In this document: one piece after another, positions 5,093 through 18,900 of the stretch
Position numbering within the stretch: the stretch's first letter is position 1
Layout: each line of letters starts with the position of its first letter
Assembly (NCBI RefSeq): GCF_027622945.1
Contig: NZ_JAPZVQ010000011.1
Coordinates: forward strand, 108,569 to 172,568
Source of the DNA: Glycomyces lechevalierae
GTDB taxonomy: Bacteria > Actinomycetota > Actinomycetes > Mycobacteriales > Micromonosporaceae
Direction: 5' to 3'
Length of the DNA stretch: 64,000 nucleotides
Program-made: the position numbers and the translations under genes
The notes under the pieces: model-generated
Told to the model about the DNA's origin: nothing
What the model saw: the letters and a program-made list of their open reading frames with translations, nothing else
The model's database searches: none

Positions 5093-5998
5093 ATGAGTGA
5101 TCGGTGGATCGAAGTGGCCCCCCGCGTGTGGGTGCGGCGCCTGGAGGAACTGGACCAGTCCGTGGGGCTGGTCATCGGCGACGAGTGCTGCCTGGTGATC
5201 GACACGGGCATCAGCGCCGAGTCCGGGTTCGCCCTCGCCACGGCCGTGCGCGAGAAGACGGACCTGCCGTGGCAGGTCGCGTACACGCACGACCACTTCG
5301 ACCACTGGTTCGGGACGTCCGCGTTCGGGGAGTCCGCGATCTGGGCCGTCGGGGACGGCGCGCACTACGTGAGCGTCGGCGACGAGCAGCGCAAGGCCTG
5401 GGCCGCCCGGTACCGCCGGGAGGGCCGGGAGGAGGACGCGCGGCGCATCGGCGCCACGAAGCTCGTGCCGCCGAACTGCCGCGTGAGCGGCGCGATCGGG
5501 CTCGACCTGGGCGGTCGCACCGTGGTGCTGCGCCAGGTCGGCTTGGCGCACAGCGACAACGACATGGTCGTCGAGGTGCCCGACGCGGGCGTCCTGTTCG
5601 CCGGGGACCTGCTGGAGAACGGCGCGCCGCCGTCCTACGACGGGGCGTTCCCGTACGAGTGGCCGCAGGCCGTCGAGTACCTGCTGAGCTGGAAGCCCGC
5701 GATCGTGGTCCCCGGGCACGGCGACCCGGCGGACTACTGGTGGGCGCGGGCGCAGGCGCGCGACCTCGCCGAGATCGCGCGGCTCTGCGGCGAGGTGGCG
5801 CAGGGGTTCCTCTCTGAGGAAGAGGCCTTGGCGCACAACCCGTTCGGCGAGGCGGTCATGCGCACGGCCCTCGACCGCTGCAAGGCCCTGGCCCCGGCCG
5901 CGCCCGAGCCGCAGGCGCCCGCGGCGGCGCCGACGCCTCCGCCGCCGGCGGTCGTGTACGAGGTCTTCGACTACAGCGTGGACCTCACGCAGCGCTAA
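5093..5998 (+). CDS. Metallo-beta-lactamase fold hydrolase
   Basis: A 301-residue member of the metallo-beta-lactamase superfamily. The zinc-binding HxHxDH motif is present as HDHFDH at residues 66-71, with the preceding strand VIDTGI and later LAHSDNDMVVEV and VVPGHGDP supplying further metal ligands. The substrate cannot be told from sequence; thioesterase, lactonase or glyoxalase-like activity are all possible. The ATG at 5093 is chosen because of a TACCAT box 7 nt upstream. The last 60 residues are Pro/Ala-rich and end with an unusual VFDYSVDLTQR tail. The gene runs into the convergent marR with a 4-nt overlap in which both stops share CTAA. Confidence 0.8.
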   Translation: MSDRWIEVAPRVWVRRLEELDQSVGLVIGDECCLVIDTGISAESGFALATAVREKTDLPWQVAYTHDHFDHWFGTSAFGESAIWAVGDGAHYVSVGDEQRKAWAARYRREGREEDARRIGATKLVPPNCRVSGAIGLDLGGRTVVLRQVGLAHSDNDMVVEVPDAGVLFAGDLLENGAPPSYDGAFPYEWPQAVEYLLSWKPAIVVPGHGDPADYWWARAQARDLAEIARLCGEVAQGFLSEEEALAHNPFGEAVMRTALDRCKALAPAAPEPQAPAAAPTPPPPAVVYEVFDYSVDLTQR

Positions 5999-6510
5999 TC
6001 CCCGAACGGCTGGTCCTCGAATCCGAGGTGGAGCTTGCGCAGGAGCGCGCCGAGCTGGGCGCGCTCCGCTTCGGTGAGCACTGACAGCGTCTCGAGTTGC
6101 AGGTCGATGCCGGTGCGCACGGCCTCCTCGATGACCTCGCGGCCGCGTTCGGTCATGCGCACCTTCAGGCCGCGCCGGTCCGCCGGGTCGGGCAGCCGCT
6201 CGACGAACCCGGCGGCCTCAAGTTTGTCGAGCCGCCCGGTGAGTCCGCCGGAACTGAGCATCAGGGTCGCCCCGATCTCCTTGGGCGAGAGCGTGAACGG
6301 CTCCCCTGAGCGCCGGATCGAGGCGAGCACGTCGAACTCGTTGCGGCCGAGTCCCTGCTGCGCCCGCAGCTCGTGGAGGCGCGCGCCGAGCTTCTGCGAG
6401 ATCCGGTGGATGCGCCCGTAGAGGGCCATGGACTCGAGCTCGAGGTCGGGCAGCTCGCGGTGCCACTGCGCGACGATCCTGTCAACGGCGTCTTCGGTCA
6501 TGCCGGTCAT
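5995..6510 (-). CDS. MarR family transcription regulator
   Basis: A 171-residue winged-helix regulator. Helices around RIHRISQKLGARL lead into the DNA-binding part: EFDVLASIR, LSPKEIGATLMLSSGGLTGRLDKLEAAGFVERLPDPADRRG, the typical MarR recognition helix and wing. It is divergent from the DMT exporter gene across a 99-bp AT-rich region with repeated motifs, so it most likely represses that exporter and itself until a ligand binds. Start ATG 6510; a second ATG at 6501 is possible. Its stop overlaps that of the metallo-hydrolase. Confidence 0.85.
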   Translation of the reverse strand: MTGMTEDAVDRIVAQWHRELPDLELESMALYGRIHRISQKLGARLHELRAQQGLGRNEFDVLASIRRSGEPFTLSPKEIGATLMLSSGGLTGRLDKLEAAGFVERLPDPADRRGLKVRMTERGREVIEEAVRTGIDLQLETLSVLTEAERAQLGALLRKLHLGFEDQPFGD

Positions 6511-6609
6511 TATGGCCTGCTCCCGTGATCTAACTCAAGTCCAAGTATCTTGACTAAAAGTATCTTTAGAGTAAGCTACTTCTTGTCAAGCTACTTCAAG
6601 GAGCCCCCG
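6511..6609. promoter_or_regulatory. Divergent marR/exporter promoter region with paired direct repeats
   Basis: The most AT-rich stretch nearby. AAGTATCTT occurs at 6543-6551 and 6558-6566, and AAGCTACTTC at 6573-6582 and 6588-6597, each pair 15 bp apart. TTGACT at 6550-6555 with TAAGCT at 6572-6577 (16-bp spacer) can drive the exporter; TTGACA on the other strand (6589-6584) can serve marR. The repeats overlap both and are good candidates for MarR sites. AAGGAG at 6598-6603 is the exporter ribosome-binding site. Confidence 0.6.
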
Positions 6610-7506
6610 ATGAACCGCAGCACGAAAGACCTCCTCCTCACCGCCCTCGCCCCCGTCATGTGGGGCACCACCTACGTAGTCACCACCGAGTTCCTCCCCG
6701 CCGACCGCCCCTTCCTCACCGCCATGCTCCGCGCACTCCCCGCCGGACTCCTCCTCATACTCCTGTCACGAAGGCTCCCAACCGGATCCTGGTGGTGGAA
6801 GTCCGCCGTCATCGGCACCCTCAACATCGCCGCGTTCTTCGCCCTGCTCTTCATCGCCACCTACCGCCTCCCCGGCGGCGTCGCCGCCGTCGCCGCAGCC
6901 GTCGGCCCCCTCGTCACCGCCGCAGCGACCATGCTGATCCTCCACCAGAAGGTCACCCTCCGCTCCTGGCTCCTCGGCCTCGCCGGCGTCGCGGGCGTCG
7001 CCATGGTCGTCCTCACCGCCGAAGCCCGCCTCGACCTCATCGGCGCCCTCGCCGGCATCGGCGGCGCCGTCTCCATGGCCATCGCCGTCACCCTCACCAA
7101 GCGCTGGGGCATGCCCAAGGAAGCCGGACCGGCCGCCCTCGCCGGGTGGCAGCTCACCGCCGGCGGCCTCCTCCTCATCCCCCTCGCCTTCGCCGCCGAA
7201 GGCGCCATCCCCGCCCTCACCGGCACCAACCTCCTCGGCTACGCCTACCTCGGCCTCATCAACACCGCACTCGGCTACTGGCTCTGGTTCCGCGGCATCG
7301 GACGCCTCTCCGTCGTGCCCCTGAGCTTCCTCGGCCTGCTCTCCCCGCTCACCGCCGCCACCGTCGGCTGGATCGCCCTCGGCCAGACCTTCACGCCCTG
7401 GCAGACCGCGGGCTTCGCTGTGGCGCTGGCCGCCACGGTCGCCGCCCAGCTCCACGCCAAGCCCAAGACCCCTGCCACGCCCGCTCCGCAGCTCGCCCGC
7501 GTCTGA
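6610..7506 (+). CDS. EamA/DMT family exporter
   Basis: A 298-residue drug/metabolite transporter with ten predicted helices in two EamA repeats. The first repeat opens with APVMWGTTYVVTTEFLP; the second contains GYAYLGLINTALGYWLWFRGIGRL and PLSFLGLLSPLTAATVGW, the standard family signature. ATG at 6610 follows AAGGAG. The divergent MarR gene suggests induction by a small-molecule substrate, which cannot be identified. The NAD(P)-binding protein 12 nt downstream is probably in the same operon. Confidence 0.85.
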   Translation: MNRSTKDLLLTALAPVMWGTTYVVTTEFLPADRPFLTAMLRALPAGLLLILLSRRLPTGSWWWKSAVIGTLNIAAFFALLFIATYRLPGGVAAVAAAVGPLVTAAATMLILHQKVTLRSWLLGLAGVAGVAMVVLTAEARLDLIGALAGIGGAVSMAIAVTLTKRWGMPKEAGPAALAGWQLTAGGLLLIPLAFAAEGAIPALTGTNLLGYAYLGLINTALGYWLWFRGIGRLSVVPLSFLGLLSPLTAATVGWIALGQTFTPWQTAGFAVALAATVAAQLHAKPKTPATPAPQLARV

Positions 7507-7518
7507 GAGGAAACCCCA

Positions 7519-8148
7519 ATGCGCCTCATCATCTTCGGAGCCGCCGGCAGCGTCGGCTACCGCACCGCCGCAGAAGCCCTCGAACGCGGCCACGAGGTGA
7601 CCGCAGTGGTCCGCAGGCCCACTGATCAACTCCCCCAAGGCGTCAAGGTCGAAATCGGCGACGCCGCGGACCCGGCCCAAGTGGCCGGGCTCAGCGCAGG
7701 CCACGACGCCGCCGTCAGCGCGATCCGCGCCCCCGCAGGCCGCGAACACGAACAGGTCGACGCCACCGACGCGCTCCTCAAAGGCGTCGCCGAAGCCTCC
7801 GTACGCCTCCTCATCGTCGGCGGCGCCGCGACGCTGAAAGTCCCCGACAGCGGCAAGCTGGTCCTCGAGGACGCCCGCTACATCTCCGAGGAATGGCGCG
7901 CGGTGGCCGAAGCCAGTGCGGCCCAGCACTACCGCTGCATCGCCGAGCAGACCGCCGACTGGACCTACCTCAGCCCGCCCGCGAACCTCGAACCCGGCGA
8001 GCGGACCGGCCGGTACCGCAAGGGAACCGACGACCTCCTCGTCACCGACGGCACGTCGCGAATCTCAGTCGAAGACCTCGCCGTGGCCGTGGTCGACGAA
8101 CTCGAGAATCCCGCCCACCACCGCACCCGATTCACCGTCGCCCACTGA
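7519..8148 (+). CDS. NAD(P)H-binding atypical SDR (NmrA/YwnB type)
   Basis: A 209-residue Rossmann protein. The N-terminal IIFGAAGSVGYR is the GxxGxxG dinucleotide-binding loop, followed by VVRRP at the end of strand two. It lacks the classical SDR YxxxK, as is normal for this atypical group, and its later part (WTYLSPPANLEPGERTG, then a short C-terminal segment) resembles YwnB-like proteins. Role unknown: reductase or redox sensor. It lies 12 nt after the DMT exporter with AGAGGAAA as ribosome-binding site, so the two are likely co-expressed under MarR control. Confidence 0.8.
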   Translation: MRLIIFGAAGSVGYRTAAEALERGHEVTAVVRRPTDQLPQGVKVEIGDAADPAQVAGLSAGHDAAVSAIRAPAGREHEQVDATDALLKGVAEASVRLLIVGGAATLKVPDSGKLVLEDARYISEEWRAVAEASAAQHYRCIAEQTADWTYLSPPANLEPGERTGRYRKGTDDLLVTDGTSRISVEDLAVAVVDELENPAHHRTRFTVAH

Positions 8149-8153
8149 GCCCG

Positions 8154-8178
8154 GGGCCGGTCGGTCGCCGACCGGCCC
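8154..8178 (+). terminator. Hairpin after the exporter operon
   Basis: GGGCCGGTCGG and CCGACCGGCCC pair around a 3-nt loop, starting 6 nt after the stop of the NAD(P)-binding protein gene. The next gene has its own -10 box right after it. Confidence 0.7.
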
Positions 8179-8184
8179 TGTCAG

Positions 8185-8190
8185 TAACCT
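8185..8190 (+). promoter_or_regulatory. -10 box TAACCT for a leaderless transcript
   Basis: TAACCT lies 8 nt before the GTG at 8199 and just after the terminator hairpin at 8154-8178. No Shine-Dalgarno sequence is seen. Confidence 0.5.
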
Positions 8191-8198
8191 CAGCTCCT

Positions 8199-8852
8199 GT
8201 GAGCGAGCCAGAGTTCCTTTCCACCACCCGATCCGGATACAACGCGAGGGCGGAGGAGTACCACGACCTCGTGCGCGAGACCTGGGGCGAGAACCTCTTC
8301 GACCTGGCGATGCTGGACGTCTTCGCCGGTCTCGTCAAAGCCGTCGAACCCCGCAGGGTCGCCGACATCGGCTGCGGCCCAGGCCATGTGACCGCCCACC
8401 TCCGCACCCTCGGGCTCGAAGCCGCCGGCATCGACCTCTCCCCCGAGCTCCTGGCCATCGCCCGCCGCGAGCACCCCGAGGTCCCCTACAGCGAAGGCAC
8501 GATGACGGCCCTCGACCTCCCCGACGCGTCCCTGGGCGGCGTCCTCGCGCGCTGGTCGATCATCCACACCCCGCCGGAACAACTCCCCGAGGTCTTCGCG
8601 GAATTCAGCCGCGTCCTCGTCCCGGGCGGCGTCCTCCTCCTCGGGTTCTTCGCCCACACCAACGACTCCCGCATCGGCTGGCAGTTCGACCACACCGTCG
8701 CCCCCGCCTGGCGCCTCTCCACCAACCGCATCGCCCGCCTCCTCGAGGAAGCCGGCTTCCGCGAGAAGGCCCGCCTCATCGAATCCGCGTCACCCCACAG
8801 CAAACGCGGCTTCGAAGCGGGCCACCTCCTGCTCCACAAGGAACAACCGTGA
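8199..8852 (+). CDS. Class I SAM-dependent methyltransferase
   Basis: A 217-residue small-molecule methyltransferase of the Methyltransf_11/25 type. Motif I is VADIGCGPGHVT at residues 54-65, followed by GIDLSPELLAIAR (motif post-I) and ARWSIIHTPPEQLPEVF (motif II region), then RVLVPGGVLLLGFF. The start GTG has no ribosome-binding site but a TAACCT box 8 nt upstream. Substrate unknown. Its stop overlaps the GTG of the DinB-like gene (GTGA), so the two are translationally coupled and may act on the same compound. Confidence 0.85.
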   Translation: MSEPEFLSTTRSGYNARAEEYHDLVRETWGENLFDLAMLDVFAGLVKAVEPRRVADIGCGPGHVTAHLRTLGLEAAGIDLSPELLAIARREHPEVPYSEGTMTALDLPDASLGGVLARWSIIHTPPEQLPEVFAEFSRVLVPGGVLLLGFFAHTNDSRIGWQFDHTVAPAWRLSTNRIARLLEEAGFREKARLIESASPHSKRGFEAGHLLLHKEQP

Positions 8853-9424
8853 TCGACGAGTTCGCCAAAGACCTCCTCCACGGCCGACTCCGCCGCGACC
8901 GCGAAGCGCTCCTCTGGAAGCTCGACGGCCTCTCCGAATACGACGTCCGCCGCCCCCTCACCGCCACGGGCACCAACCTCCTCGGCCTGGTCAAGCGCGT
9001 CGCCACCGTCGAAGCCCGATACTTCGGCGAGGTCTTCGACCGCCCCTCTCCGGAACCACTCCACCCCTGGCAGGACTCCGACGGCAGCGACCAATGGGCG
9101 GCCCCCGACGAGACCCGCGACCAGATCACCGACTTCTACCGCCGCACCTGGGAGCACTCCGACGCGACGATCACCGCCCTCCCGATCGACGCGCCCGGCT
9201 GCGTCCCCTGGTGGTCAGACCCCCACGCCCACACCAACCTCTTCGCCATCCTGATCCACGTCCTCGGCGAAACCACCCGCCACGCCGGCCACGCTGACAT
9301 CCTCCGAGAGTCCCTCGACGGCCGAACCGGCCTCCGCCCCGAACACGAACAGCAGATCAACGAACAAGCCCGAGCCGCCCACCGCGCCAACCTCGAACAG
9401 ATCGCGAAGTCGGCCGACCAATGA
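8849..9424 (+). CDS. DinB-like / DUF664 family protein
   Basis: A 191-residue predicted four-helix bundle of the DinB/DUF664 superfamily. Family features are DREALLWKLDGLSEYDVRRPLTATGTNLLGLVKR near the start, ARYFGEVFDRP, and HVLGETTRHAGHADILRE near the end; the conserved histidines are the usual metal ligands. Such proteins include thiol-dependent transferases using mycothiol or bacillithiol, but most are uncharacterised. The GTG start overlaps the upstream methyltransferase stop by 4 nt. It is the last gene before the repeat-flanked HNH element. Confidence 0.8.
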   Translation: MIDEFAKDLLHGRLRRDREALLWKLDGLSEYDVRRPLTATGTNLLGLVKRVATVEARYFGEVFDRPSPEPLHPWQDSDGSDQWAAPDETRDQITDFYRRTWEHSDATITALPIDAPGCVPWWSDPHAHTNLFAILIHVLGETTRHAGHADILRESLDGRTGLRPEHEQQINEQARAAHRANLEQIAKSADQ

Positions 9425-9467
9425 CTGGCGGCTGCTTTCTGCGCCGTGTGGGGCCCGACTTAAGGCG

Positions 9468-9552
9468 GGCAGCGACAAAGAGGTCTGAGGGCGGGTGGGG
9501 TGTGCCCAGCGGCTGACAGGCAGCGCGGAGCTGAGGGTGGCGGGGCAGCGAT
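9468..9552 (-). repeat. Left inverted copies of the 75-bp repeat
   Basis: GGCAGCGACAA at 9468-9478 is the exact reverse complement of the TTGTCGCTGCC core of the right-hand array, and the bases after it (AAGAGGTCTGA) match the TGAGGCCT part at most positions. A second, weaker copy GGCAGCGAT starts at 9544, 76 bp away, the same period as on the right. Confidence 0.6.
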
Positions 9553-9604
9553 CTTCTCTTGGTTGGCCTTGCGCCCCAAGGTGGTCGAGGGTGCTGGTAG
9601 GGCG

Positions 9605-9673
9605 GACATTGATAGTCCTCTATGGAATATTCACTCTATCGGGTGATGACACTGTCGCGGTGGGATGTCATCA
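9605..9673 (+). promoter_or_regulatory. AT-rich promoter region with an 8-bp inverted repeat before the HNH gene
   Basis: TTGATA at 9609-9614 begins an AT-rich stretch through GAATATTC (9625-9632) and CACTCTATC, likely the promoter. TGATGACA at 9644-9651 and TGTCATCA at 9666-9673 form a perfect inverted repeat with a 14-bp spacer, a candidate operator or leader hairpin. AGGAGG follows at about 9725, before the ATG at 9739. Confidence 0.45.
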
Positions 9674-9738
9674 TTGAAGTACGAACAAGGAAGCGAAAAC
9701 AGGCAGATCATTCGAGAACAGGTGAGGAGGCGAGACCC

Positions 9739-11571
9739 ATGGCCGCATGCAACACCCACACCACTCCGGCCCTCTCCTCCGCCTCGAACCTCTCTGCTTC
9801 TGCCGATCGCAGGTCTCAGGCTGCGGCGATCCGTTCGGCTCTCGATGAGGCCGCCTCGCTGATCAACACCCAGCACGCTTCGGTACTGGCCTCGGTCATC
9901 GCGATGAAGGAGCAGGGCCTGCACCGTTCGGAGTTCGGGTTCTCGGCGCTGCGGGATCTGTTGCTGTCGCAGTTCGACTTCACGTTCAACACGGCTGGAT
10001 CCATCGCGGTCATCGCGAGACTGTCAGGGAAGTTCCGGATCCTGGCCAAGGCGGCAACGACAGGAACAGCCAGGATCGACCAGGTCGCCTATGCCGTCCG
10101 CCAGCTCGACCAGACCCCCGCCATGAGACTCTTCGCCCGCACCCCCTTCAGGGCCCCGGTCGCTTCCCCCTTCGACCCCGAGATCCTGTGCGCGACTCCG
10201 GAAGCAATGGTGGCTGAGTATTGCGCTCATGCTTCGTTCAAGGAGCTGCGCCGCCACCTGGATGAGCTGTGGGCCTCGATCGCCGAGGAGACCGAACTCT
10301 TCGACGAGTTGGGTGAGCAGTCCCTCCAGCGGCTCGAACTCACCGAGACCGGCAACGGCATGTGGCACCTCGAAGGCACCCTCTCAGAGGCGACCGGTCG
10401 TCTGCTCGACAAGTACCTGAAGACCGCCTGCCCACCGCCCCGCCAAGAAGACACCGAGGCTGAGGCTGATACTGAGGGCGGGGAAGGGCTCCTGCCTGCG
10501 CAGGCGAACCGCAATGCCGAAGCCCTCCACCAGCTCCTGGCCGGGTACGGGTCCTCCCCGCAAGCCGCCACCCGCCACGGCCATACCGCCACCCTGGACC
10601 TGGTCGTGGACATCGAGACTCTGCAGGGCAAAGACACCGGCCGCCTCCCCCTCCTGGAAGGCCAGCCCATCAGTGTCGCCCGCGCCCGCCTGCTCGCCTG
10701 CGAAGCCGGGGTCATCCCCTCGGTCTTCAACTACACCACCGGCGAAGCCGTCGAGCTCGGCCGGGCTATGCGCCTGCCGAACGCTTCGCTGCGTCGCAAG
10801 CTGGAACTGGAGCAACCGGAAGGGTGCGCTTGGCACGGCTGCGACCGCCCGGTCGCCTGGACAGAGGCGCACCACATCCAGCACTGGGCCGACGGCGGCG
10901 TGACGGCCGCCGAGAACCTGATCCTGCTCTGCCGATTCCACCACGGCCGCATCCACACCCAGGGTTGGTCGGTAGAGAAGACCGGCCCCGGCCAGGCCAT
11001 CATCACCCACCACGACGGCCACGAACCGGCCTTGAGCGCCCCCGGTGAATCCGGGTGCGGCTGCTCGGACTGGCGCACCGACCACGACATGGACACGGAA
11101 CACCAAGACTCGGACTGGGATGTGTTCCCGACCGGGCTCTACCGCTCGGAATGGTCCGAGACCATGAAGCCCGACCTGGATGGGATGGCCGAGGCCATCG
11201 ACAGAGACCGGGCATTCAAAGCAATGCGGGCCGCCAAAGCAAGATGCCGAGAGAAGTTCAGGGCACCGAGCCCGCCCTCCCCGATACCGGTCTTAGGCTG
11301 CCCCAGCAGGCAGACTGCTGGGGGAAGCGCCGCAAAGCAACACCACGCAGCGCAGCTCGAACCTCCCCTTGAGGTTCGGGCCCCTCGGCATGCCCAAGGC
11401 AGGAAACCGACACCTGCTAACCACTTCCAGTCACTGCCCGCCCGAACCCCGAACCGAACCGACAAGGAAGCCGGAGGCAGACCAAAGCCCCGCCACCACC
11501 TCGTTGTCGCTGCCAGGTTGAACCTCGAGACGATCAGACCAAGCAGCCGGAGACCGGCCAGGACCGCCTGA
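9739..11571 (+). CDS. DUF222 / HNH endonuclease domain protein (13E12 repeat family)
   Basis: A 610-residue protein. Residues about 30-330 are the DUF222 region (LHRSEFGFSALRDLL, then ALHQLLAGYG and VVDIETLQG), and residues 363-405 are a Cys-containing HNH nuclease domain: CAWHGCDRP, AWTEAHHIQHWADGG, NLILLCRFHHGRIH. The ATG at 9739 follows AGGAGG. After about residue 440 the sequence is low in conserved features, and the last 45 residues are translated repeat DNA whose TGAGGCC motif supplies the stop, so the natural C-terminus was probably shorter. Such proteins are thought to cleave DNA nonspecifically or as homing-like nucleases; function is unproven. Codon use is less GC-rich than in neighbours, suggesting transfer. 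Confidence 0.85.
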   Translation: MAACNTHTTPALSSASNLSASADRRSQAAAIRSALDEAASLINTQHASVLASVIAMKEQGLHRSEFGFSALRDLLLSQFDFTFNTAGSIAVIARLSGKFRILAKAATTGTARIDQVAYAVRQLDQTPAMRLFARTPFRAPVASPFDPEILCATPEAMVAEYCAHASFKELRRHLDELWASIAEETELFDELGEQSLQRLELTETGNGMWHLEGTLSEATGRLLDKYLKTACPPPRQEDTEAEADTEGGEGLLPAQANRNAEALHQLLAGYGSSPQAATRHGHTATLDLVVDIETLQGKDTGRLPLLEGQPISVARARLLACEAGVIPSVFNYTTGEAVELGRAMRLPNASLRRKLELEQPEGCAWHGCDRPVAWTEAHHIQHWADGGVTAAENLILLCRFHHGRIHTQGWSVEKTGPGQAIITHHDGHEPALSAPGESGCGCSDWRTDHDMDTEHQDSDWDVFPTGLYRSEWSETMKPDLDGMAEAIDRDRAFKAMRAAKARCREKFRAPSPPSPIPVLGCPSRQTAGGSAAKQHHAAQLEPPLEVRAPRHAQGRKPTPANHFQSLPARTPNRTDKEAGGRPKPRHHLVVAARLNLETIRPSSRRPARTA

Positions 11572-11821
11572 GGCCTGGTTGTCGCTGCCAGACTGAACGC
11601 GGACCGGATCGGACCGGGTGGCCGGAGAGAGGCAATGACCTTATGAGGCCTTGTTGTCGCTGCCAGACTGAGGTTGAACCCCGGCCCACTCTGACTGGAA
11701 GGCCGGAGGCAGACCAAAGCCCCGCCACCACCTCATCGTCGCTGACAGATTGAACCTCGAAACGAACGGACCGGGCATCCGGAGACCGGCCGGGATCGCA
11801 TGAGGCCTTGTTGTAGCCGCC
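11428..11821 (+). repeat. Tandem array of about 75-bp repeats
   Basis: The core GTTGTCGCTGCC occurs at 11503, 11578 and 11653, in degenerate form at 11735 (ATCGTCGCTGAC) and 11810 (GTTGTAGCCGCC), and very degenerate at 11428. Spacings are 75, 75, 75, 82 and 75 bp. Each unit runs core, AGACTGAAC-like segment, GGACCGG, GCCGGAGACCGG and TGAGGCCT. Two unit types alternate: one with CAGACCAAAGCCCCGCCACC (11479 and 11710) and one with the GGAGACCGGCC segment. Because 75 is divisible by 3, the minus strand reads an open 25-residue repeat, which I regard as chance. Confidence 0.8.
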
Positions 11822-11825
11822 ACTC

Positions 11826-12557
11826 CTATGCCCAGGCGCCCGGGCCGCCAGCGAGGATTACCTGGCCGGTTTCGATGTCTGCAACCGCAGCTTCTGCGAC
11901 GTGGGCGGCGAACTCTTCAACTGAGAGGAGCCCACCGGCAGCCTCTCGCCGTTGCTCGATTGTGCCCGGTTGCGCTCGCTCAAGCAGTGTGGCGGTGATG
12001 GTTCCCTCGATCATGTCTCCCGAGACGGTGACAAAGTCGATGCCGCACTCGGTGAAGGCCGGGATCATGGCACGCAGGGCGTCCTCTCCTGCACGCTTGG
12101 AGCGGGCCACCGGTGCGTAGGTGTCGAGCGATTCGCTTGATGTGTCGGCGAAGTGGGCGGGGTGGCTGGTGATGTACACGATCCTGCCGCCCTCGCGCAT
12201 GAGCGGGAGGGCCTTGGTGGCGAGGTCGACTTGCGCGTCGCGGTTGAGTCGGTACGCGTAGTCGGGGTCGACGTCTCGTTCGAGGCCGCCGGACGCGTTG
12301 AGGACCAGCACTGCCAGATCTCCGACCTCTGCAAACATGCGGTCCACGTCCGAGGCTCGGGTGATGTCGGCCTGTACCGCAGTCGCGGAGCCACCGGATG
12401 CCGCGATCTCGGCCACGACGGCGTGGGCGCGCTTCGCCTTGTCGCGGTAGTTGACTACGACATGCGCGCCCTCACCCGCGAGAAGGCGGGCGGTGGCCGC
12501 GCCGATGCCGCGGGAGGCGCCGGTGATGAGCACGGTCTGGTCCGTCAGCTTCCCCAA
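11826..12557 (-). CDS. SDR family oxidoreductase
   Basis: A 243-residue short-chain dehydrogenase/reductase. TGASRGIGAA near residue 12 is the cofactor-binding glycine motif, VVVNYR suggests NADP(H), and VLNASGG replaces the usual NNAG. The active site is unusual: after YITSHPAHF the expected YxxxK reads YAPVARSK, with six residues between Tyr and Lys, a pattern I associate with an actinobacterial subgroup. The start is taken as TTG at 12557 because AGAGAGG lies 7 nt before it; the open frame extends upstream without a better start. It ends 5 nt from the repeat array. Substrate unknown. Confidence 0.8.
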   Translation of the reverse strand: MGKLTDQTVLITGASRGIGAATARLLAGEGAHVVVNYRDKAKRAHAVVAEIAASGGSATAVQADITRASDVDRMFAEVGDLAVLVLNASGGLERDVDPDYAYRLNRDAQVDLATKALPLMREGGRIVYITSHPAHFADTSSESLDTYAPVARSKRAGEDALRAMIPAFTECGIDFVTVSGDMIEGTITATLLERAQPGTIEQRREAAGGLLSVEEFAAHVAEAAVADIETGQVILAGGPGAWA

Positions 12558-12725
12558 TGCATGACCTCTCTCCACTTTGTGTTGATGCCGCGCCAGCCTA
12601 CGAGGAGAAGCATCCCGGGCGAATCGATGCGGCTGGGAGTGTGGCGAATCGGCGCGGACACAAGAACCGGACAGCCGTGAGATCGGCACGGCGTTTATGC
12701 GGATGAAAGTCGCCGCAGGGCCAGT

Positions 12726-12830
12726 TAGCATGACGCCGTGACATACAACTTCTTCCGCCTCGGTTAGCGCCCCGCTAGCCGCCCAGAGGGATATCCCCGT
12801 GGCTGGCGATGTGGCGCGGCTGTTCGCCGC
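12726..12830 (+). promoter_or_regulatory. Candidate leader-peptide attenuator before the THUMP methyltransferase
   Basis: TAGCAT (12726-12731) stands 6 nt before a GTG that opens a 9-codon ORF. Its stop lies in hairpin 1:2, CGGTTAGCG (12761-12769) with CGCTAGCCG (12773-12781). Strand 2 can instead pair with GGCTGGC at 12801-12807 (2:3), enclosing the palindrome GGGATATCCC. A further hairpin GCGGC/GCCGC (12816-12830) lies before the ribosome-binding site of the methyltransferase. Mutually exclusive stems after a short ORF are the layout of ribosome-controlled attenuation. Inference only. Confidence 0.45.
12738..12767 (+). CDS. Nine-residue putative leader peptide
   Basis: GTG ACA TAC AAC TTC TTC CGC CTC GGT TAG would give MTYNFFRLG. 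There is no Shine-Dalgarno sequence; a TAGCAT box 6 nt upstream suggests a leaderless start. The stop codon sits inside the first of two alternative hairpins. Two adjacent Phe codons, Tyr, Asn and Arg could make translation sensitive to charged tRNA supply or to ribosome-binding drugs. No homologue is known to me. Confidence 0.35.
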   Translation: MTYNFFRLG

Positions 12831-12857
12831 TCCAGGTCGTTCACCCGGAGCCTTGTC

Positions 12858-13928
12858 ATGTCATCGAACCGTCCTTCGACGGTGGGCGCGTTCGCGCCCG
12901 AGCCTCAGCACCTCTTCGCCAGCACCGTTCATGGACTCGAACATCTCGCAGCCGAGGAACTCACCGAGCTCGGCTATCGCGTGGTCTCCATCCGGAAGCG
13001 CCAGATACTGCTCACCGCTGCAGATCCTGATGTTCTCGATCGACCCAGAACGGTCGACGACTTGCTCATTCAGGTACTGCAGACAGCCGACCCCGGTCCC
13101 ACCAAAGCCGACCTCCAACGGCTTCGTCGCCTGTTCCGACCCGTCGTCGCCCTGGGGCCGGTCAAGGCCGACTTCGATTGCGGCGAGCCGGTGTTCACCG
13201 TCTCGGCCTCCATGGGCGGTCGGCGCACCTACAACCGCCATGATCTCGAAGACGTCGTCGGTGCGTTCCTGTCCGAACGCCTCGGGGCCCGGTTCGCCTC
13301 CCGCCGCGGCGGCGTACGCCCGCCCGAAGGTGCCGCCGAATGGCGCGCGGTGCTCTCCCCCGAGGGCCTGCTCCTGGGCTACCGGGGCCGCCGGCCGCCG
13401 CTGCATCGCCGGGTGTGGAAGACCGCTTCGATCCGGGGCACGCTGCATCCGCCGGTCGCTGCAGCCATGGCGCGGCTCGCCGGCATCGAATCCGGGATGA
13501 CCGTGCTCGACCCGTGCTGCGGTGCGGGAACGATCCTCATCGAAGCGCGAGAACTCGCTCCCGCGGCCACCTACACCGGTTCGGATCTCGACCGGAACGC
13601 ACTCGCGTCTGCAACCCGGAATGCGCGACACCGCAACGGGATCGCGTTGGCGCAAGCCGATGCCGCCCGCCTGCGACTGCCTTCCGGATCCATCGACCGG
13701 ATCGTGACCAACCCCGCATGGGGCCGCCAAGTCGCCGCGCCGCAGCAGTTCCCCGCGCTCCTCGCTGAGTGGCGGCGGGTCATCGCTCCAGACGGACGGC
13801 TCGTATGCCTGATACCGCCTGAACTGTTGCGGCACTTCGAAACGTCGCGTTGGCGTCTGACGGGCACCCGGCAGCTCAGCCTGTCAGGGCAGCATCCGGT
13901 GATCGCGATCGCGAGGCCGAACCCATGA
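12858..13928 (+). CDS. THUMP-domain class I RNA methyltransferase
   Basis: A 356-residue protein with the two-part layout of Trm14/RlmL-like RNA methyltransferases. The N-terminal ferredoxin-like and THUMP part starts with LFASTVHGLEHLAAEELTEL, residues 19-38. The C-terminal Rossmann domain has motif I VLDPCCGAGTILIEA near residue 214, GSDLDRNAL, and the catalytic TNPAWGR near 283, a variant of the NPPY/NPPF motif used by N-methyltransferases acting on bases. The target is tRNA or rRNA guanine by analogy. The ATG at 12858 has a weak ribosome-binding site; a possible attenuator precedes it. It ends 8 nt from the convergent drrB-like gene with no terminator between. Confidence 0.8.
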   Translation: MSSNRPSTVGAFAPEPQHLFASTVHGLEHLAAEELTELGYRVVSIRKRQILLTAADPDVLDRPRTVDDLLIQVLQTADPGPTKADLQRLRRLFRPVVALGPVKADFDCGEPVFTVSASMGGRRTYNRHDLEDVVGAFLSERLGARFASRRGGVRPPEGAAEWRAVLSPEGLLLGYRGRRPPLHRRVWKTASIRGTLHPPVAAAMARLAGIESGMTVLDPCCGAGTILIEARELAPAATYTGSDLDRNALASATRNARHRNGIALAQADAARLRLPSGSIDRIVTNPAWGRQVAAPQQFPALLAEWRRVIAPDGRLVCLIPPELLRHFETSRWRLTGTRQLSLSGQHPVIAIARPNP

Positions 13929-13936
13929 CCCGGCGG

Positions 13937-14736
13937 TCAGACCATCTTGCGCTTGTAGGCGCGCATGGCGAGTGGGGCCGTGACTGCGAAGATCGCGACC
14001 GCCCAGACGAAGGTCCACATGAGCGGTTCGGTGATGGGGCCGAAGGAGAGGAGGCCTCTCATGGTGTCGGCGAGGTGGGTGACCGGGTTGACCTTGGCCC
14101 AGGCCTGCATGAAGCCGGGCATGGTGTTGATGTCGACGAAGGCGCTGGAGGTGAAGGTCAGCGGCATGATGATGACGAAGGCGTAGATCTGAACCTTCTC
14201 CTCCGAGTCGGCGACCACGCCCATGAGGACCGAGATCCACGAGATCGCCAGCGCGAACACCACGAGCACCAGGGCCGCAAGCAAGGCGCCCGCGACGCTG
14301 CGCAGTTCGAAGCCCATCAAGAGCCCCAGGCCGAGCATGACCACGATCGACCAGACCTGCTTGAACATGTCCGCGAAGATCTTCCCGGCCAGAGGCGCCG
14401 AGCGGGCGATGGGCAGGGACCGGAAGCGGTCGTACACGCCTTTTCGCAGGTCGGCGTTGATGCCGGTGCCCGTGTACATGGTGAGGAAGATGGCGTTCTG
14501 GGCGATGAGGCCGCCGAGGACGTACTGGAGGTAGTCCGAGGTGGATCCGGCCATCTGGCCGCCGAAGACGTAGACGAACAGCAGCAGGAACATGATCGGG
14601 CTGAGGCTGAGGTCGACGAGTTCGAACGGGTTGTGCTTGATGCGGACCATCTGGCGCCAGGCCATGGAGAGGACCTGACTGATCGTGGAGCCGAGGCCCG
14701 GGCGGTGGACGACGGGGGCCTCGATGGTTGCGGCGG

Positions 14737-14740
<4 letters not shown>
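13937..14740 (-). CDS. ABC-2 type exporter permease (DrrB type)
   Basis: A 267-residue permease with six predicted membrane segments. Family features are the N-terminal MAWRQMVRIKHNP amphipathic helix, the first TM PIMFLLLFVYVFGG, DLRKGVYDRFRSLPIARSAPLAGK in the coupling region, and MPLTFTSSAFVDINTMPGF followed by NPVTHLADTMRGLL, which is the ABC-2 signature. It forms a daunorubicin-resistance-like efflux pump with the ATPase encoded just upstream (4-nt ATGA overlap). The transported compound is unknown; no biosynthetic gene cluster is adjacent. Confidence 0.88.
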
Positions 14741-15744
<1,004 letters not shown>

Positions 15745-15814
15745 TTCGTCCTCCTTGGAGTGGTGTCGTCGTGTGGAAGGGTTCTGGTTTCCGGGCGTCG
15801 CGCGCCCGAGTTCA

Positions 15815-15844
15815 TGATGTCATATTGACGCGTGCTTGACATCA
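15815..15844. promoter_or_regulatory. Inverted repeat upstream of the drrAB-like operon
   Basis: TGATGTCA (15815-15822) and TGACATCA (15837-15844) form a perfect 8-bp inverted repeat with a 14-bp spacer. It overlaps an AT-rich stretch (CAATATGAC on the minus strand) that could be the -10 region. Size and position fit a TetR-type operator. Confidence 0.5.
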
Positions 15845-15933
15845 CCTTTGCGGTGTCGATTCGCCGCCCCCTGCGCGGCTACACCGGAACTCGATCATGC
15901 ACCCCGGGTGTGACATCCGGGAGCGAATGCCCG

Positions 15934-18900
15934 CTAGAGGGTCTGGAGGAGCTTCCGGATCCGCTTCTCGCTCACCTGGTAGCGGGTGCCGAGCTGCTGG
16001 GCGAAGAAGCTGACGCGCAGTTCCTCGAGCATCCAGCGGACCTCGCGGCCCTCACCGGAGCGGAGCGCGGCGGGACGGGTGCGCGCGAGCGAGTCCCGTT
16101 CGGCCTCTAGGGACTGGATGACTTCCATCTTGCCCTTGTCGGCGGCGATGTCGGCGACCGCGCGCTTGGCGCGGAAGCTGATGGCCTTGACGTAGCGGTG
16201 GAGGTCGTCGAGGCGCCACCAGCCGGTGGTGCCGATGAAGCCGTCCGCGCCGATGAGCCCTTCGAGCTGGCGGCGCATGTCGCTCAACGCGGGGAGGGCG
16301 CGGAGGTCGAACTTGCCTTCGAGGAGGCGGGAGGCCTCGCGGGCCTCGGTCAGGACCGCGGCGGCCTTGCGGGCGACGGCGGCGGACTCGCCGGCGACCT
16401 CGGGTTTCGCGCGTTTGAGGAGGGCTTCGAAGCCTTCACGGTCCCAGGCCGGGCCGCCGCCTTCGATGAGGACCTTGTCGAGGACGGTGCGCACGCAGTC
16501 GGCGAGGAGCGCGTCGACGTTCGCGTAGGGGCCGGTCGCGAGGGCGAGCTGCTCGTTGCGGGTGAGGGCGTCCTTGAGGCGGGGGTCGGGGATGTTGAGG
16601 CGCAGGAGGCGGCGGGTGCCGGCCCACATGTTCGCGGCCTGGGAGCCGGGGTCGGGGAAGGCCTTGATCCCGACGGAGCCGCCTTCGTCGACGAGTCCGG
16701 GGTAGGCCTTCGCGGTGTAGCCCTTGCGCGGGGTCTCGTGGAGCTTGGGGAGGGCGTCGAAGTCCCAGGTCTTGAGGCCGGTGCGTTCGAGGTCGAAGGC
16801 CTCGGAGGCGGCCTCCTGGGTCTTGGGGGCGAGCTGGCGCTGCAGGGCGCCGAGCTCCTTGCCTTCGGCGAGGACCTTGCCTTCCTCGTCCTTGACCTGG
16901 AAGGTGACGAGCAGGTGCCCGGGGACCTTGGTGAGGTCGAAGGCGTCGGCGGGGACGTGCACGCTCGTCATCGACTTGAGGGTGTCCGCGAGCGCGGCCA
17001 TCATGGGCCGGCCGGGGGCGGGGGCCATGCGGGCGACGGCGGCCCTCGCGAAGTCCGGGGCGGGCACGAAGCTGCGGCGCAGGGACTTGGGGAGGCTCTT
17101 GATGAGCGCTTCGGCGAACTCGGCGCGCAGGCCGGGGACCTGCCAGGTGAAGGCGTCCTGGTCGAGCTGCTGGAGGGCCGGGAGCGGGACGGCGACGGTG
17201 ACGCCGTCCCGGGCGGAGCCGGGCTCGAACTCGTAGTCGAGTTCGAGGTCGGCGCCTTCGGAGGTCCAGACCTCGGGGTAGGAGTCGGCGGCGACGCCTT
17301 CGGCGCGGTCGCCGAGGAGCAGGGCCTCGTCGAAGTCGAGGAGGGTCTTGTCCTTCTCCTTCTTCCACCAGGAGTCGAAGTGGCGGCCGGAGACGATGTC
17401 GGCGGGGAGGCGCTCGTCGTAGAAGTCGAAGAGGGTCTGCTCGTCGGCGAGGAGGCCGCGCTGGCGGATCCGGTTCTCGAGGTCCTCGACCTCGCTGATC
17501 TTGGCGAGGTTCCGGGCGAGGAACTTGTGGTGGGTGTCCCATTCGGCCTGGACGAGGGCGTGCCGGATGAACAGCTCGCGGCTGGTCTCGATGTCGATGC
17601 GTCCGAAGTTGACCTTGCGGCGGGCGACGATCGGGACGCCGTAGAGCGTGACGCGCTCGAACGCGAGCACGGCCCCGGCCTTCTTCGACCAGTGCGGCTC
17701 GGAGTAGGTGCGCTTGCTGAGGTGCTCGGCGAGCGGTTCGACCCATTCGGGTTCGATCTTGGCGCAGACGCGGCCCCAGAGGCGGCTGGTCTCGACGAGC
17801 TCGCCGGCGACGACCCAGCGCGGCTGCTTCTTGGCGAGGCCGGAGCCGGGGAAGATCGCGAACTTGGCGTTGCGGCCGCCGAGGTATTCGCGGGTGTCGG
17901 CCTCTTTGACGCCGATGTGGGAGAGGAGCCCGGCGAGGAGCGCGGTGTGGACGCGTTTGGGGTCCGGCGTGGAGTCGGGCGGCTCGATCTCGATCTTCAG
18001 GCTCTTGAGGACGCCGAGGATCTGGCGCACCAGGTCCTGCCACTCGCGGATGCGCAGGTAGTGCAGGTACTCCTGTTTGCACATGCGGCGGAAGGAGCTC
18101 GAGGAGCGGGTCTTGCGCTCGTTCTCGAGGTACCGCCACAGGTTCAGGTACGCGGAGAAGTCGGAGTCGGGGTCGTTGAAGCGCGCGTGGGACTGGTCGG
18201 CCTGGGCGCGCTTGTCCGCCGGGCGCTCCTTCGGGTCCTGAATGGACATCGCGGCGGTGATGACGGCGACGGCGTGCACGCACTGCTCGTCGCGGGCCTG
18301 CAGGATCATGCGGGCCAGGCGCGGGTCGATCGGCAGGCGCGCGATGTCGCGGCCGGCCTTGGTGAGGCGCCGCTCGCCGGCGCGCACGTCCTCGAGCGCG
18401 CCGAGCTCCACCAGGAGGTCCATGCCGTCCTTGATGTTGCGCGAGTCGGGCGCGTCCACGAACGGGAAGGACTCGACCCGGCCGAGCTTCGCGGCGGTCA
18501 TCTGCAGGATGACGCTGGCGAGGTTGGTCCGCAGGATCTCCGCGTCCGTGAACTCGGGGCGGGCGTTGAAGTCGTCCTCGGAGTACAGGCGGATGCAGAT
18601 GCCCTCGGCAACGCGGCCGCAGCGGCCCGCGCGCTGGTTGGCGCTGGCCTGGCTGATCGCCTCGATCGGCAGGCGCTGCACCTTGGTGCGCGCGGAGTAG
18701 CGCGAGATGCGGGCGTACCCGGCGTCGATCACGTACCGGATGCCCGGCACCGTCAGGGAGGTCTCGGCGACGTTGGTGGAGAGGATGATCCGGCGGCCGG
18801 TGTGCGAGGAGAAGACCCGGTGCTGCTCCTGGGCGGAGAGGCGCGCGTAGAGCGGGACGACCTCGGTGTGCCGGAGCTTCGCCTTCTCGAGGGCGTCGGC

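Follow-up and report, generated by a model that had tools for sequence, protein, structure and literature searches.

In the draft genome of Glycomyces lechevalierae, a soil bacterium (5.6 Mb, 33 contigs), a gene for a DUF222/HNH nuclease is bordered by copies of a 75-bp sequence that stand inverted to its left and in tandem to its right. What are these repeats, and is the gene between them an ordinary host gene or part of something that moves? The original prediction, made on the 64,000-nucleotide stretch of DNA that we call the window, took the repeats for the ends or the target of an element whose only gene is the nuclease, possibly moved by nuclease-directed recombination. The reading at which we arrive, and to which we would assign a probability of about 0.55, is that the gene belongs to a nuclease-bearing, selfish chromosomal element of ~2.4 kb that is maintained by copy-to-copy repair.

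Architecture of the element

The element in the window (9439-11822) is made up of an inverted end unit, a leader, the DUF222/HNH gene and a set of tandem 75-bp units (Table 1). Two genes converge on it, one for a mycothiol-S-transferase/DinB-like protein on the left (Pfam Mycothiol-S-transferase, E 6.6e-41, with DinB_2 just under the cut-off) and one for a short-chain dehydrogenase (SDR) on the right; in the two genomes that list both neighbours (G005, G013), these are on separate contigs. The core of the unit, GTTGTCGCTGCC, recurs where it had been predicted, at 11503, 11578 and 11653 and in worn form at 11735 and 11810, with spacings of 75, 75, 82 and 75 bp, and the stretch 11499-11671 (period 75) has the top score, 195, among the 13 rows that Tandem Repeats Finder returns for the window. 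A profile built from 54 units of the G. lechevalierae genome, the window's own included, finds five plus-strand units in the 64 kb (E 6.6e-10 to 1.2e-20), one of which, at 11424-11493, is new, as well as one inverted unit (E 0.0017) that corroborates the inverted core proposed at 9468. Up to E 1 it finds nothing further in the 64 kb, and the weaker left copy that had been proposed at 9544 is not recovered. The downstream array (11424-11822) comprises five direct units of ~75 bp and one truncated unit. The distances to the neighbours also agree with the prediction, with 44 nt from the left gene's stop codon to the 9468 core and the array ending at 11822 against an SDR stop at 11826. Seven stretches of the 75-bp unit fold no better than shuffled sequence (z -0.53 to 0.41, RNA parameters), and we therefore reject a role for it as a hairpin or an RNA.

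Table 1. Features of the nuclease element in the window, and of the second element and its associated motif at other loci
Feature	Position	Strand	Evidence or remark
Inverted unit at the left end, covering the first ~45 nt of the 75-bp unit	9439..9483	-	Profile E 0.0017; alignment with 8 other G. lechevalierae copies
Conserved leader, resembling the 5' part of the second element's RNA	9597..9700	+	Bcore profile (model 8-102) E 2.7e-5; leader alignment
Imperfect palindrome GGTGATGACA ... TGTCATCATT in leader	9642..9675	+	TGTCATCATT exact in 13 of 16 aligned nuclease-element (type A) leaders
DUF222/HNH nuclease gene, 610 aa	9739..11571	+	Pfam DUF222 E 3.8e-10, HNH E 3.6e-6
DUF222 domain, residues 164-355	10228..10803	+	Pfam
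HNH domain, residues 367-406	10837..10956	+	Pfam; EAHH, CRFHH and GRIH invariant in 8 own copies
First unit, degenerate, within reading frame	11424..11493	+	Profile E 6.6e-10
Unit containing the nuclease stop codon	11499..11573	+	Core search, Tandem Repeats Finder, profile (11499-11572)
Unit	11574..11648	+	Core search, Tandem Repeats Finder, profile (11574-11647)
Unit, 82 bp	11649..11730	+	Core search, profile (11649-11727)
Unit	11731..11805	+	Core search, profile (11731-11804)
Truncated last unit, right end of element	11806..11822	+	Core search; many other copies also end on the right in partial units
Second, non-coding dispersed element	L216:2489-3891; L260-L275; L213:1123-2331		End units common with the nuclease element
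28-bp hairpin-like motif	L264:2470-2501; L330:1158, 6041; L333:1283, 6116; L331:1518

The predicted protein has a DUF222 domain followed by an HNH domain, both above the Pfam cut-offs, and a Pfam search returns these two models only, with no RuvC, no Y1 transposase and no known transposase. As the first unit lies inside the 3' end of the frame, the C-terminal tail of the protein is read from array sequence, and these tails differ from copy to copy. Among the nuclease copies of the same genome, differences at codon positions 1, 2 and 3 amount to 8.3, 3.8 and 27.7%, and none of the seven own copies given has a stop codon before the HNH motif; to judge from the sequences, the reading frame is kept under purifying selection. 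The imperfect palindrome in the leader may be an operator or a hairpin, and is a candidate for either.

Copies in the Glycomyces lechevalierae genome

The genome contains nine DUF222 matches plus four right halves (L069, L073, L077, L079) and four left halves at contig ends, the contig breaks of this draft assembly falling inside four copies; if the halves pair, there are about 13 nuclease elements. Homology to the window's copy (79-87%) extends from the left inverted unit through the array and ends there. A divergent copy, L075, has 70% DNA identity to that of the window (52% for the protein) and occupies a place common to 12 other loci of the genus. When the 75-bp unit was searched for genome-wide, the array DNA gave 26 matches including itself, every one in or beside a DUF222 element, and the exact core occurred 34 times, 32 of them in or beside such elements, against six occurrences of a reversed control pattern. 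Neither of the two exact cores that lie outside elements (L080, L081) is matched by the unit profile. The 25 further array matches and the number of exact cores relative to the control exclude chance, and the placement of the matches shows that this is not a common dispersed repeat without a tie to HNH genes.

Both the purifying selection on the nuclease and the conserved position of L075 would be expected if the copies were a dispersed host gene family, once duplicated together with its flanks and passively converted by homologous recombination, in which the nuclease has another job, such as defence or repair, and the units are hitch-hiking minisatellites. We consider such a family somewhat unlikely. 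A defence-system identity was tried, and PADLOC found no match, which counts against such a family; further evidence on both sides is given below.

Layout in relatives and in other genera

Among 34 named loci that encode a relative, 33 are from Glycomyces (one comparison took 24 of these 34 alongside the window, five having no suitable frame and five being left aside). The unit profile finds units in 25 of the 34 loci fetched at E <=1 and in 17 at E <0.01. Upstream units have minus orientation (22 loci) and downstream units plus orientation (14 loci), and just two matches, both weak (E 0.58 and 0.83), run the other way. In G. luteolus (G022) and Glycomyces sp. YM15 (G023) taken together, an inverted unit is present at 19 of 23 left ends (fragment L205 being left out of this count) and a direct unit at 20 of 22 right ends, the ends without a unit being the left ones of L178, L184, L185 and L189 and the right ones of L184 and L185. 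In one locus, L088, three units lie on the left and one on the right, so that unit number is variable on both sides, and the right ends of the elements are not constant, being truncated at varying points.

Different species retain the arrangement of inverted unit on the left and tandem units on the right, which counts against a dispersed host gene family. Terminal units that are inverted copies of each other on the two sides are what one would look for in a transposon, with the DUF222/HNH protein as its transposase and the units as its binding sites, several of them at the right end; transposons such as Mu and Tn7 do carry tandem binding sites at their ends. We nevertheless think a transposon of this kind quite improbable, given the variable truncation of the right end, the fact that HNH nucleases are not known to act as transposases, and the lack of a target duplication described in the next section.

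In this actinobacterial class DUF222/HNH genes are common and occur in many copies: DUF222 was found in 49 of 60 sampled genomes, with 31 matches in one of them, a distribution that favours the host-family account. The end units are another matter. An array test that demanded a period of 40-160 backed by at least five repeated 12-mers was positive at none of 20 DUF222 loci from 12 genomes of other genera, and at 12 of the 15 Glycomyces loci given, of which L083 and L195 are one element (the gene position in L319 and L322 was set by hand, and L322 is cut by a contig end). With no such array at the 20 loci of other genera, the end units are not a general feature of DUF222 genes. Carriage by phages or plasmids was rejected: of 48 pattern matches in viral contigs none was confirmed as a relative, and plasmids gave two remote matches.

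Occupied and empty sites

A search with 36 flank probes, together with single comparisons, identified five element sites that are empty in a relative (L177, L181/L192, L180, L078 and L076). The L177 site of G023 is empty in both G. lechevalierae and G022. The L181/L192 site of G023 is empty in G022, and these two contig ends are counted as one element because their flanks adjoin there. At the L180 site of G023, beside which lies a terminator-like hairpin, the flanks are ~70 nt apart in G022, and G023 has an additional 1 kb on the right; at the L078 site of G. lechevalierae, G022 has ~60 nt between the flanks and G. lechevalierae also carries a further 1.75 kb. The L076 site of G. lechevalierae corresponds to a short intergenic stretch in G. 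buryatensis. A search of the empty-site stretches (L210, L211, L212, L222, L227, L336, L096) turned up no end unit, which indicates that the units arrive with the element. Of the two roles originally proposed for the repeats, that of ends therefore holds, since they recur with the gene and empty sites exist, and that of a pre-existing target is not supported, since no unit turned up in the empty stretches. At two further sites, that of L074 (L214 and L224) and that of L185 (L215), relatives have a ~1-kb open frame between the same flanks instead of an element.

This polymorphism of element sites argues against a dispersed host gene family. Many insertions are nonetheless common to species (L070/L182, L067/L178, L071/L202, L076/L188, L069/L197/L186 and others), and jumps must accordingly be rare and movement slow. 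A target duplication was sought in 19 of 22 elements, the ends of L184, L185 and L198 not being reliably found, and the longest shared word was 5.6 for paired as against 6.0 for unpaired comparisons. When three occupied sites were set against four empty counterparts, the overlaps were 38, 28, -11 and -59 nt, with no consistent target duplication and no exact donor site, and at the L177 site shuffles equalled the overlap of 28-38 nt (13/200 and 43/200). The lack of a target duplication in either comparison weighs against a transposon and counts in favour of a host gene family.

At one further locus (L217:6121-7028; G000:C23), a frame that by eye is PIN/VapC-like takes the place of a nuclease element present in G022, and the L217 flank in G023 has a different nuclease element in the opposite orientation.

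Concerted evolution of the copies

Do copies at the same site in different species share a history? Over the N-terminal half of the nuclease gene, six same-site pairs between species are 80.1-81.1% identical, and the means for any cross-genome pair are 79.6-79.9%. Within genomes, the mean identity is 87.0% in G. lechevalierae (10 rows, L075 left out), 85.7% in G022 (8 rows, range 77.9-97.8, L203 and L204 left out) and 93.7% in G023 (8 rows, L184 and L185 left out); the resident pair L075/L203 is 86.0% identical. The flanks of the same-site pairs are 84-96% identical over long stretches (80-92% for L070/L182), with the L228/L200 match resting on one 120-base probe (87%). In windows along the left flank, L076/L188 is 91-98% identical up to ~250 nt from the element and L067/L178 81-91%; the left flank of L070/L182, at 66-85%, is no better kept than the gene. 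Nuclease genes at shared sites resemble the copies of their own genome and not their positional partners.

A quick maximum-likelihood tree was built from 42 of 44 rows (L203 and L204 were too short). It groups ten G. lechevalierae copies (support 82; nine of them, 97), eight of G023 (100) and five of the eight of G022 (99), with L195, L198 and L199 placed outside the G022 group. On this tree site labels require 10 changes for 12 rows and genome labels two, the minimum for three genomes. A runs test on polymorphic third positions, which seeks converted tracts and was evaluated by 1000 permutations, gave ratios of 1.36 for G. lechevalierae (7 rows, 0/1000) and 1.43 for G023 (6 rows, 0/1000). For G022 the ratio was 1.34 (4 rows, 35/1000), the longest run not being unusual (213/1000), and for the single-copy resident orthologues that served as controls it was 1.09 (8 rows, 1/1000; longest run 610/1000) and 1.06 (3 rows, 277/1000). 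There is gene conversion among the copies, clear in two genomes and weak in the third, and at most a slight excess in the control. Recombination among the copies is supported by same-site identities, tree and runs test alike.

A proposed model for spread by repair

These elements are dispersed, have definable ends, are absent from some sites in relatives and undergo conversion within genomes. That relatives lack copies at some sites, and that copies overwrite one another, speaks for a selfish element rather than an ordinary gene, and the lack of a target duplication, together with the presence of the element in place of a host gene at two sites, fits repair-based spread better than cut-and-paste. 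We infer that the HNH nuclease is the driver of the recombination. In the model that we favour, the nuclease would cut in or next to related elements, with the gene itself or the end units as obvious targets, and the break would be repaired from another copy, with the repeated units serving as homology arms. Such repair would homogenise the family and would occasionally carry the element to a new intergenic site. Repair of nuclease breaks would explain how copies remain similar and arrays gain or lose units, how a gene can be replaced, and why no target duplication is left. A counterpoint to the nuclease as driver is that repeats that are 85-90% identical may convert unaided.

A second element with the same ends and a structured RNA

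The site of L072 in G. lechevalierae is occupied in G022 by another insertion, ~1.2 kb long, which shares the left unit and has a comparable leader along with tandem units of ~70 bp. It represents a second dispersed element, and there is no DUF222 match inside it. In G. lechevalierae at least 17 of 18 matches to L216, a relative of this insertion, carry its RNA core, and the element is present in at least 16 of 22 Glycomyces genomes, counting listed matches within the element part of the query. The original description of the nuclease as the only gene of its element is right for the window and is incomplete in that the ends are common to this second, nuclease-less element. That an element lacking the nuclease gene has the same ends also counts against a dispersed host gene family.

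The ~300-nt core of the second element is highly conserved and shows the covariation of an RNA. Changes on both sides occur in nine pairs, where shuffles give 4.1 +- 1.3 (0/500) and slid partners 2-5, controls that lean in favour of the structure as it was predicted on the same alignment. The nine loci searched gave no match to Rfam, HEARO included, within the elements. Mean identity of the RNA core is 88.4% within G. lechevalierae and 83.6 and 85.0% across genomes; the sole same-site pair of cores is 83.9% identical, and that core is 85.8-92.0% identical to 16 other cores of its own genome. We looked for a straight swap of one element type for the other at three sites, and rejected each, the places at the L216/L335/L201 site being neighbouring and not identical, the right junction alone agreeing at L072/L213, and the right flank alone being in common at L078/L334.

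The profile of the RNA core (Bcore) matches the leader of the nuclease element (E 2.7e-5). It is tempting to speculate that the two elements, the non-coding one at least as numerous as the other and sharing its ends and leader, are parts of a single mobile system in which the ~300-nt RNA would act with the nuclease in cutting or in copying into new sites; we regard this as improbable. That the structured RNA, whose 5' part would also head the nuclease mRNA, guides or regulates the nuclease seems to us very improbable. The similarity of the leader, the covariation and the ends common to both element types are all consistent with such an RNA partner. However, the likeness of the leaders may reflect just a common promoter or operator, Rfam (HEARO included) gave no match in the nine loci, and Pfam detects no RuvC in the protein.

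A 28-bp hairpin-like motif, GGGCGACAC.CCCG.CCGCGGGGGTCGG, precedes the RNA of the second element. The motif occurs again upstream of the ribosomal protein S12 and L3 genes of a related genome (L330), and is perhaps a leader or antitermination signal.

Relation to known systems

DUF222/HNH repeats are known as REP13E12 and appear among the repetitive elements listed in a 2023 paper (PMC10589994). A 2026 preprint on M. tuberculosis, where REP13E12 is a hotspot of frequent gene conversion, counts 87 such events in these regions, places a putative prophage attachment site inside the repeat and describes the repeats as lacking a defined biological function (PMC13061034). Compared by these published descriptions, the Glycomyces elements are similar in their DUF222/HNH genes, their several dispersed copies and the conversion among them, and differ from REP13E12 as described in showing 75-bp end units, empty sites and a sister RNA element. 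Searches of open-licence papers on DUF222, 13E12, REP13E12 and Glycomyces repeats brought up no account of the end units or the RNA element. With definable ends, occupied and empty sites and a conversion signal in hand, both selfishness and nuclease-driven conversion become testable, and with the sister element comes a structured RNA that is abundant and unmatched in Rfam.

Other systems share some of these features. REP elements and their RAYT proteins have one gene between inverted repeats and non-coding relatives with the same ends across the genome, as here, but RAYT is a Y1 tyrosine transposase that acts on hairpins, whereas the Glycomyces protein is an HNH protein with no Y1 transposase, and its unit folds no better than shuffled sequence. 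HNH homing endonucleases spread by repair of the break from a copy-bearing partner, the very mechanism proposed for the Glycomyces element; unlike them, it shows no intron, intein or fixed allelic target and is inserted at scattered intergenic sites. IscB/HEARO elements likewise combine HNH nuclease genes and structured RNA within one element superfamily, the differences being that RuvC is absent from the Pfam results, that the RNA has no Rfam match and that it is found mainly in separate elements. Finally, the units on both sides recall the inverted terminal repeats of DDE transposons and insertion sequences, from which the element differs in showing neither a target site duplication nor a known transposase.

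Large insertions that split nuclease copies

Some nuclease copies are themselves interrupted. In L082 (G000:C2:104300-119900) a copy is split within the HNH codons by an integrated element of ~13.7 kb, whose integrase (L082:841-2715) is a large serine recombinase with Resolvase, Recombinase and zinc ribbon domains; it resembles in this the phage phiRv1, which sits in REP13E12. In G022, the left junction sequence of L200 is nearly the same as that of L082, and in L199 ~13 kb (5267 to 18129 of the reverse complement) interrupts a copy at a different point of the HNH codons.
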